Part shown: positions 10,057 through 32,884 of the stretch, in pieces
How positions within the stretch are numbered: position 1 is the first letter of the stretch
How the letters are laid out: each line of letters opens with the position of its first letter
Assembly: GCA_001769035.1 (NCBI GenBank)
Contig: MENF01000141.1
Span: 1 to 34,728, forward strand
Direction: 5' to 3'
DNA length: 34,728 nt
Origin: Bacteroidetes bacterium GWA2_32_17
Lineage (GTDB): Bacteria; Bacteroidota; Bacteroidia; Bacteroidales; GWA2-32-17
The notes under the pieces: model-generated
Seen by the model: only the letters and a program-made list of their open reading frames with translations
Told to the model about the DNA's origin: nothing
Databases searched by the model: none
Program-made: the position numbers and the translations under genes

Positions 10057-10346
10057 GAGAGGGGGAGTTTAAATTAAAGTTACAATATTAACCGTTTTGA
10101 GTTTAGTAGCATGAGTAATATCTTAATATGTACAAGTAAACAGGTGGTATTTTTCATTCTACATTTTGCGGTTGAAAATTCTATATTCTACATTTTAAAA
10201 GCAAAAGACAAATAATTCACACCGTTAGATAGTTTAATTTTAGTAGTTGTTCCTGTTTTATTAATCTTATCAAACGGAATAAATGTAAAATATTGAATAT
10301 CCAATGTAGAATTTTAAATGTAACTATTGAGAAAAACTAACAAGGT

Positions 10347-10399
10347 AAAAAAAACTGGGGGAACTTTTTTTTCAAATATAGTGAATTATTAATAGCTTA
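10347..10399. repeat. Solo copy of the GGGGGAACTTTTTT inverted repeat
   Basis: It contains CTGGGGGAACTTTTTTTTC, then AGTGAATTATTAATAGCTTA. This closely matches the reverse complement of 31619-31669 and shares the GGGGGAAC core with 32445-32494. No coiled-coil gene is attached here, so it looks like an isolated end of the element. Confidence 0.8.
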
Positions 10400-10597: not shown

Positions 10598-10912
10598 GTC
10601 ACGCAAAGCTCGCAATGCCCGCAAAGTTTTAAGCCCGCAAAGTTAAAAAAAATCATTAATGATTTTTTTCATTGCGTGCTTACAGCGTGTTTACTATTCA
10701 AACCATAAAATCTCATAGTCATTTTTTCTTTTTACTTATTATAATTTTCTATATTAACCCCGTTGGATACCAATTTTTATTTTCATACCACATTTCTATA
10801 GGAATTATATAACGGGGTTCACCCCGTGAGATAGTTAAATAAAAGAGTGAACTATATTAAAGAGCAATTATCTAACGGGGTTAATTGCGAGCTTTGCGAC
10901 TTTGCGTGACAA
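10598..10912. repeat. Nested inverted repeats around TAACCCCGTTGGATA
   Basis: The outer arms are GTCACGCAAAG at the left and CTTTGCGTGAC at the right, each with neighbouring GCAAAG/CTCGCAA words. The inner arms are TAACCCCGTTGGATA at 10755-10769 and TATCTAACGGGGTTA at 10869-10883. Between them is a small hairpin, CGGGGT-TC-ACCCCG, at 10813-10826. A related pair, TACCCCGTTGAATA and TATTCTACGGGGTGA, occurs at about 13554-13618. Confidence 0.75.
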
Positions 10913-31618: not shown

Positions 31619-31669
31619 TAAGCCGTTAAAAATTCACTAATTTTGATAAAAAAGTTCCCCCAACTTTTT
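31619..31669. repeat. Left inverted repeat of the coiled-coil gene cassette
   Basis: Starts TAAGCCGTTAAAAATT and ends AAAGTTCCCCCAACTTTTT. It is matched in reverse complement by 32445-32494, and its full length is matched by the solo copy at 10347-10399. It ends 3 bp before the stop codon of the coiled-coil gene. Confidence 0.85.
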
Positions 31670-31672
31670 GTA

Positions 31673-32335
31673 TCATGCTGCTAATAAGACTTTTCTCTTT
31701 GTAAATAGACTCATACCTATATTTTCTTTTGACCACTTTTTTATGTCTGCTATTTTTACAGTCTCCATTATATGCTTTACACTTTTTTCATCTAAATTAC
31801 TGTTAAAAGCTGCAATTGCTAAAATTAATGGTGTTAACGATGCCATTGGATTTTCACTTACTCTATTTTTATATTTTTCAAAAATTGATTCTAAAATATC
31901 TGATGAAAATAGAATAGTATTTGTATCGGGTAATAATTGAATTTGTTGGTTAATTTTTAAAATTAATTGTTCTTTCAATTTTCTACCATTTTTGCTTTCT
32001 AATTTCTCTAATATTTTTTCACATTTTTTAAAACTTAATTTTGATAACCCATTATGTTTTAGCTCTTTCTCTACTTCTTTTATGGATTGATTTATTTCAG
32101 ATAATTCTTTTATTAATTCCGAATAATTTTTAACCCATGATAATTTTGTTTTAATTCTTTCAAGTGTTTTTGTTTCAAAATATTCTTGTAAGTATTTTAT
32201 TTGTTCTGGGTCGTTTAATTTGTCTCGACTTATTACAAGTTCTTTGATTCGCTTTTTTAATGAATTTAGCTCTTTTGCTCGTTGAATAGCTTTTAATTTC
32301 CATATACAGTTTGAAAAAAAATTTATCAATTTCAT
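31673..32335 (-). CDS. Coiled-coil protein of unknown function inside an inverted-repeat cassette
   Basis: A 220-aa protein counted from the ATG at 32335; the longer frame begins with GTG two codons upstream. I do not recognise the family. About residues 15-130 are Lys/Glu/Leu-rich helices with coiled-coil spacing (KELNSLKKRIKELVISRDKL, EINQSIKEVEKELK). A more hydrophobic helical part follows (MASLTPLILAIAAFNS), then a Lys-rich end, WSKENIGMSLFTKRKVLLAA. There is no signal peptide; the first 15 residues are only mildly hydrophobic. It is transcribed opposite to both neighbours and bounded on each side by the inverted repeats at 31619-31669 and 32445-32494. No transposase motif (DDE, HUH, Tyr or Ser recombinase) is visible, so it would be a passenger rather than the mover. 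Confidence 0.65.
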   Translation of the reverse strand: MKLINFFSNCIWKLKAIQRAKELNSLKKRIKELVISRDKLNDPEQIKYLQEYFETKTLERIKTKLSWVKNYSELIKELSEINQSIKEVEKELKHNGLSKLSFKKCEKILEKLESKNGRKLKEQLILKINQQIQLLPDTNTILFSSDILESIFEKYKNRVSENPMASLTPLILAIAAFNSNLDEKSVKHIMETVKIADIKKWSKENIGMSLFTKRKVLLAA

Positions 32336-32444
32336 AATCACAAATTTTAATTTGGCAAAACTTGTAATTATTTCAATACGTTTTAATGTCTTTTATTTAT
32401 TTCATTAACAATCTGATATTTATATCTATATTATTTCCTTTTTT

Positions 32445-32494
32445 AAAAATTGGGGGAACTTTTTTTTTGAAAAACTTAAATTTTTAACGGCTTA
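32445..32494. repeat. Right inverted repeat of the coiled-coil gene cassette
   Basis: Starts AAAAATTGGGGGAACTTTT and ends AAATTTTTAACGGCTTA, the reverse complement of the left repeat with a diverged middle. It lies 110 bp upstream of the coiled-coil gene's ATG. A 10-bp palindrome GGGCATGCCC follows directly at 32495. Confidence 0.85.
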
Positions 32495-32653: not shown

Positions 32654-32884
32654 AAAATAAAAGATAAGGAAAAAGAACAATTTGAAAAACTTCGTAAATT
32701 GACCAGACAAGAAAAATTTGAAATTGTATATTTTCTTTGGGACAATATTGCTAAAGAGCAAGCTGACATGTCTATTCCTGCTGATCATCAACGAATAATA
32801 AATGAAAGGATTGAGAGAATCAGATCAGGAAACGCTAAATTTAAGACATGGGATGAAATTAAAATAAAATATAAGTTTACCTAA
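32654..32884 (+). pseudogene. Addiction-module antitoxin (TIGR02574/Unstab_antitox-like), probably without a start codon
   Basis: The open frame from 32654 encodes about 76 residues, the usual length for this short antitoxin family. It includes KLRKLTRQEKFEIVYFLWDN (family pattern KLSxxEKxxIVxxLWDSI), then IPADHQRIINERIERI and a C-terminal TWDEIKIKYK (family pattern SWEEVKxKL). No ATG lies at the expected place; the first usable start is TTG at 32699, which would cut 15 N-terminal residues. Its stop overlaps the toxin's ATG as TAATG, the usual coupled arrangement. Antitoxins of this family pair with RelE/ParE-type toxins, as here. It may still be made from the TTG. Confidence 0.6.

Follow-up and report, generated by a model that had tools for sequence, protein, structure and literature searches.

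Among described insertion sequences (ISs) with DDE transposases, the p-MULT group brings together IS256, ISH6, ISLre2 and ISAzba1/ISMich2/ISKra4 (PMC3942029). In the account given there, these transposases combine the DDE triad with a C/D(2)H motif 11–19 amino acids past the second aspartate (D2) and a long stretch between D2 and the glutamate with a reported helical insert of 99–138 amino acids; target duplications are 8–9 bp long, the ends carry a conserved terminal cytosine, and the ISMich2 group has two open reading frames (ORFs) with a −1 frameshift. The IS1202 family, formerly in the unclassified ISNCY group and recently raised, is described with transposases of 394–507 amino acids, an additional binding block close to each terminus, outer ends of the form TGT...ACA and target duplications that are 5 bp, unusually long or absent; it has Q seven residues after the catalytic E (E+7), where K or R is the rule for DDE transposases (PMC10132070). 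Derived elements are also known. KP, which represses, is a non-autonomous internal deletion that encodes a short in-frame protein of 207 amino acids (PMC7776569), and the BrickBuilt MITEs of Porphyromonas gingivalis are non-coding elements of Bacteroidota whose ends look like the termini of ISPg1, ISPg9 and ISPg4 (IS5-like) (PMC4596501).

Here we analyse an 876-bp unit in a window of 34,728 nucleotides that makes up contig MENF01000141.1 of Bacteroidetes bacterium GWA2_32_17 (assembly GCA_001769035.1). Like KP, the unit appears to be an internally deleted element with a short in-frame protein, of 220 amino acids, but it derives from another transposase family and another domain of life. Its host genome also carries non-coding elements with IS-like ends, as in BrickBuilt, except that the ends here belong to an unmodelled family. 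That parent family looks undescribed.

The 876-bp unit

A preliminary description had reported inverted ends around an unrecognised, reverse-oriented coiled-coil gene and a solo copy of the end 21 kb away; the arms and the ORF stand, the "solo" end and the "unrecognised" gene do not. The arms at 31619–31668 and 32445–32494 are identical at 41 of 50 positions in a direct 50-mer comparison independent of the profile R1, and the next-best 50-mer within the window reaches 30/50. R1, a 54-position sequence profile built from 16 ends, matches both arms and the end at 10347–10399 with E≤4.8e-14 in the host genome, scores that follow by construction because all three are among those 16 sequences. The ORF between the arms reads for 222 amino acids from a GTG at 32341 or for 220 from an ATG at 32335, and the best E values of the 220-aa protein against Pfam and NCBIfam are 0.03 and 0.18, all under the cut-offs. 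There is no target duplication around the unit: its flanks, GGTTGGGGG and GGGCATGCC, agree at 3/9, and exact end repeats do not exceed 3. The features are collected in Table 1.

The ORF at 32663–32884, directly right of the unit, encodes a putative antitoxin of an addiction module (PF09720, E 9.3e-14). The short ORF that follows it, which we take to be RelE-like from its appearance, has no Pfam match.

Table 1. Features of the 876-bp unit and of the related element in the window
Feature	Position	Strand	Evidence
Whole 876-bp unit, very probably an internally deleted IS derivative	31619..32494	− (transposase orientation)	Collinearity with the L081 element
Terminal inverted repeat, OrfB-3′ side; outer TAAGC... 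and inner AAAAAGTTCCCCC blocks	31619..31671	+	R1 match, arm comparison
Terminal inverted repeat, OrfA-5′ side	32444..32494	−	R1 match, arm comparison
Fused ORF, 220 aa from ATG; stop codon 31673–31675	31673..32335	−	ORF listing and alignment
5′ part: end, leader, OrfA start	32235..32494	−	L081 element 1–262, 70.8% identity
Deletion junction	32222..32234	no strand	L081 element 263–1096 absent
3′ part: OrfB C-terminus with catalytic Glu, and right end	31619..32221	−	L081 element 1097–1698, 75.7% identity
Catalytic Glu, E149 of the fused protein	codon 31889..31891	−	Comparison with full transposases
Glu codon (E153) replacing Gly of full transposases; FGxYK to FEKYK	31877..31879	−	Alignment of 16 transposases
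Truncated MITE with the same ends; complete end 10347–10399, far end missing	10103..10399	−	Match to the MITE on host contig C121

Collinearity with a complete insertion sequence

Reversed, the unit is collinear with a 1698-bp IS of another genome of the same order (locus L081), interrupted by a single gap of about 834 bp. From this alignment, the 220-aa protein is therefore the start of OrfA, about its first 33 codons, joined in frame to the end of OrfB, about its last 180; the OrfB part is 64% identical to residues 236–423 of the L081 protein. Missing from the window copy are the rest of OrfA, the frameshift run and the start of OrfB with D1, D2 and DxxH, and by inference an HTH-like segment as well. 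With both catalytic aspartates gone the fused protein should not catalyse, although E149 is kept, with K156 at E+7; a glycine conserved in all full transposases is a glutamate here. The exact position of the deletion is approximate, because the nearest autonomous relative is only about 71–76% identical.

On this alignment we hold it to be very probable that the unit is a non-autonomous IS copy that arose by an in-frame internal deletion. The preliminary interpretation had been right in seeing a derivative of a mobile element, non-autonomous and bounded by inverted ends. The protein belongs to no library family but is recognisable, through its full-length relatives, as an OrfA start and an OrfB C-terminus. 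Beyond the window, this protein C-terminus recurs on a Bacteroidales contig of a second genome (L047), where an end of the same kind comes after it, and a Draconibacterium contig (L046) holds a fragment.

The parent family and its transposase

At E≤0.001, R1 found ends in 21 of 393 genomes of the order, a count based on the best ≤14 candidates scored per genome, in which weaker matches may be due to chance; the best E was below 1e-6 in 10 genomes, the host included. At two loci, L081 and L082, ends lie 1.7–1.8 kb apart and enclose a short coiled-coil-like OrfA and an OrfB of about 430 codons, whose overlap lies at nine consecutive A. Autonomous, transposase-bearing copies of the kind envisaged in the preliminary description are thus present, in other genomes. 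OrfB has relatives at E≤0.001 in 15/393 genomes of the order, in 3/395 genomes of the phylum including the host (a coarse first look), and in plasmid records (15 and 16) from the cyanobacteria Nostoc, Calothrix, Gloeothece and Chondrocystis, from Persicobacter (Bacteroidota) and from Candidatus Thiodictyon (Gammaproteobacteria). Bacteroidota, Cyanobacteriota and Gammaproteobacteria all have members of the family. Among the plasmid records listed, OrfB is annotated as "hypothetical protein" or carries no annotation. Searches of viral contigs with the profiles A2 and A6 and with the OrfB of locus L150 each returned one pair of phage contigs, which carry a single insertion of the family and show no difference across the stretch compared; the window protein and the L081 OrfB found no relative among viral contigs, nor did the Nostoc OrfB match any phage record.

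In an alignment of 16 transposases (A5), D, D, DxxH, E, a K at E+7 and the glycine mentioned above are kept in all 16, and the K agrees with the K/R rule. DxxH follows D2 at a spacing of 19 residues in nine members and of 24 in seven, compared with the 11–19 of p-MULT, and the whole distance from D2 to E, as distinct from the length of an insert, is 185–261 residues. The ISs measure about 1.5–2.0 kb, with a second end block some 36–42 bp inward from the outer repeat.

The triad, a DxxH after D2, the order of these motifs, a long stretch between D2 and E and the length of the target duplications recall p-MULT, and the two ORFs recall the ISMich2 group; the D2–E distance, however, exceeds what the p-MULT description suggests and fits it poorly, and the ends begin with TA rather than with the terminal cytosine. 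A transposase of comparable size and a second end block are shared with IS1202, from which the family differs in its TA...TA ends, 9-bp duplications and the K at E+7. Searches of Pfam-A and NCBIfam 20.0 with the 16 A5 members (matches at E≤0.01) gave none seen above a curated cut-off, scores having been compared directly with the cut-offs for 13 of the 16. Pfam yielded a single weak match, taken as spurious. The weak NCBIfam matches were to IS5 (IS5_2, NF033579) in 4/16, to IS6 (NF033587) in 4/16 and to ISH6 in 1/16 (E 9.1e-5; score 21.4 bits, cut-off 240). For IS5 and IS6 they are N-terminal and best in Persicobacter (E 6.1e-8 and 6.5e-6), yet their highest scores of 32.5 and 26 bits stay below the cut-offs, which are 140 and 125; within the Persicobacter sequence they span 73 and 91 residues (50–122 and 62–152), before or around the first catalytic Asp. 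An OrfB profile was compared with a single IS256 sequence and with two ISKra4-like ones, the latter below the cut-off of that model; neither comparison gave a reliable match, although the IS256 alignment pairs the two Asp. No PDB sequence matched, and two structure predictions, which bear on a putative RNase H fold, were of low confidence (mean pLDDT 35 and 42).

In the openly accessible literature searched, which included PMC8147514, PMC10132070, PMC7776569 and PMC4596501, no description of the family was recognised. The preliminary suggestion of an undescribed element therefore holds at the level of the parent family, which appears undescribed and reaches no curated Pfam or NCBIfam cut-off. 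Judged against these two libraries, we file it as a putative IS family of its own that would work like other DDE ISs.

Expression and mobility

Sixteen copies were examined for their coding arrangement: 11 have two ORFs, four a single ORF, and one is partial. In all 11 two-ORF copies the OrfA/OrfB overlap contains six or more consecutive A, with OrfB in frame −1 in nine and +1 in two, from which we infer that OrfAB is made by ribosomal frameshifting at this run; the signal is weak evidence, because AT-rich DNA often contains such runs and several hosts are AT-rich. In the mechanism that we propose, the parent IS would encode a short, coiled-coil-like OrfA and an OrfB with an HTH-like segment followed by D, D, DxxH and E; frameshifting at the A run in their overlap would yield the OrfAB transposase, which other copies would encode in one ORF. 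The transposase would cut both ends and insert the element by 9-bp staggered strand transfer. An in-frame internal deletion in such an IS would have produced the window copy, which, since it keeps both ends, may once have been movable in trans.

Exact 9-bp target duplications flank 13 of 20 two-ended autonomous copies, and for ten copies 9 is the sole exact duplication length between 3 and 12. The seven without are four Persicobacter copies (one at 6/9), both G221 copies and that of G059. Left out of this count were L081, whose right end coincides with a contig end, the partial G349 copy (L131), Gloeothece L127 and G176 L129, where no terminal repeat was found, and G019 L133, where no such end was recognised. 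Of the six non-autonomous copies four agree at 8/9, G269 at 4/9 and the window unit at 3/9; for MITEs, 8/9 was found in 4/5 cases. Both ends begin with TA in 25 of 26 elements, and with TA and AA in one.

One empty site was found for the family. On a phage contig (L150, 2549–4302) a copy splits an amidase gene with TCACTATGT on either side, and on contig L154 the uninterrupted gene (Amidase_2, PF01510) contains a single TCACTATGT. Taken in 100-bp steps, the identity between the two contigs is 78–96% across 400 bp of left flank, falling to 25–31% beyond that, and 82–97% across 600 bp of right flank. The 9-bp duplications and this empty site indicate that the parent family has moved. The preliminary description had pointed to empty sites and target duplications as tests of mobility, and both are seen for the family but not for the window unit: in four other genomes of the same genus no syntenic empty site was recognised, the matches there being short.

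Two autonomous copies have unusual surroundings. The G059 copy (L130) lies between two near-identical inverted repeats of 131 bp (1–131 and 1759–1889), perhaps as part of a composite element or because it inserted into a hairpin repeat, and the 12-bp flanks of L136 on the Persicobacter plasmid pPP1, GGGCTGTTGCAC and GTGCAACAGCCC, are perfect inverted complements, perhaps reflecting insertion between the ends of another IS.

Ends and MITEs in the host genome

The host assembly (G000) consists of 234 contigs, several of which terminate at these repeats, and a DNA search of it gave 23 matches, many at contig ends. R1 recovered 19 ends, six of them in three pairs, six no more than 90 bp from a contig end and seven unpaired inside contigs. 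The complete pairs are the window unit and two elements of 476 bp (C121) and 473 bp (C226), which are 91.6% identical throughout, resemble the window unit solely in their terminal stretches of about 50 bp, and contain no ATG ORF longer than 35 amino acids. These two elements are MITEs, and their 9-bp flanks each agree at 8/9. To the question whether pairs always flank the same protein family the host genome gives a negative answer, as among its three complete pairs this protein lies in the window pair alone.

The end at 10347–10399 does match the left arm, at 42/50 for the copy ending at 10399 on the minus strand, but it is not solo: positions 10103–10399 are 91.7% identical to the C121 MITE over 301 aligned bases, the full element being about 475 bp. 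Similarly, six of the seven unpaired internal ends run on into 79–301 bp of MITE interior and so belong to truncated elements; the one on C229 matches at the end only. Contig C19 holds about 100–110 bp of the window-unit type at its end, including a few bases of the left flank.

Several further repeats were seen. At the contig ends of C68, C149, C44 and C63 (L012, L015, L016 and L014), four ends of the element, three left and one right, all adjoin the 9-mer GGTATAGGG, which belongs to TATAGGG-rich repeats and suggests repeated insertion of MITEs into another repeat. The inverted repeats CCCCGTTAGATA...TATCTAACGGGG at 10755–10885 are also present inside the MITE and perhaps represent a further repeat family. 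An IS630-type DDE_3 transposase is encoded at L019 2961–3368 (G000:C111:29460–29867), near a truncated MITE and close to a contig end; it was rejected as the mobilising enzyme, as it lies about 250 bp past the MITE and matching ends were not seen on inspection. A Tn3-like reading of GGGG...TAAG ends was dropped because the common interior lies on the GGGG side.

Origin and present state of the window copy

Three other accounts of how the unit came about have to be weighed. The preliminary description took the gene for a passenger, and an intact ORF outside all library families, between inverted ends, is indeed what a true gene cassette with an unrelated gene between transposon ends would offer; yet both parts of the ORF match OrfA and OrfB of one IS in the same order and frame, as does the non-coding leader. 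This collinearity contradicts the cassette, to which we assign next to no probability, and identifies the gene as a transposase remnant. The preliminary description had also named mostly single ends as a sign of mere intergenic repeats, a pattern seen here only in part; such ends would be palindromic repeats of the REP/BIME type flanking the gene by chance. The seven unpaired ends out of 19 would fit, but the MITE interior adjoins six of them, and the same ends occur at both termini of the full IS copy L082, with a 9-bp duplication; given such autonomous copies the idea was discarded as scarcely conceivable. More weight is due to recombination between two element copies, which would have created or altered the unit by joining the ends of different insertions, in place of a simple deletion within one. 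The disagreement of the 9-bp flanks, the 19 ends across the host genome, and C19 with its shared stretch of about 110 bp and few left-flank bases would all suit it, although a duplication is also lost through decay or deletion of the flanks and the interior is collinear with one IS across a single gap; we regard recombination as possible but rather doubtful, and simple internal deletion remains the reading that we prefer.

Protein searches of the host assembly, each scoring the best four candidates, found no transposase that is intact; they returned the window remnant and, in some of them, one decayed fragment on C44 with three stops. Given four scored candidates per search and 234 contigs, several ending at repeats, an autonomous copy may have been collapsed in the assembly or be absent from it. 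Because no host transposase and no target duplication were found, the window copy is most likely a relic, immobile now. Its own transposition as a unit likewise lacks the support of a duplication, as do 7/20 autonomous copies. Against a mere relic one might set the idea that the fused protein, with the OrfA coil and the C-terminal region of OrfB, was kept as a repressor which, like KP, forms mixed multimers with the full transposase and blocks it; as the deletion removes the need for frameshifting, the short protein could even be more abundant than OrfAB. The precedent of an internally deleted P element (PMC7776569) and an ORF open and in frame across the junction speak for it, and relaxation is not visible in the part shared with L081 (dN/dS about 0.16, dN 0.19, dS 1.20; 15 private amino-acid changes in the window copy, 18 in L081), a test of low power since the sequences may have acquired most of this divergence before the deletion took place. 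KP, however, is reported to interact with P-element DNA (titles cited in PMC7776569), and the HTH-like segment has been lost here; the glycine beside the catalytic Glu, kept in 16/16 full transposases, is changed; no transposase to repress was found in the host; and there is only one complete copy, besides the stretch of about 100 bp of this type with which contig C19 ends. We therefore think a repressor unlikely, and the more comprehensive picture of an undescribed DDE IS family of at least three phyla, with its own MITEs and a frameshift-free 220-aa product as a transposition repressor, would be quite improbable as a whole.

Significance

Taken as an internal deletion derivative, the window unit is of an ordinary kind, and the parent family matters more. 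Since no curated model was seen to capture OrfB, surveys of ISs based on Pfam or NCBIfam may miss copies of the family, its MITEs and the genes that it has broken. The conserved residues, the ends and the 9-bp duplications suffice for building a model and for annotation. The unit itself may provide a bacterial case in which a deletion turns a frameshifted transposase into a short, frameshift-free protein.
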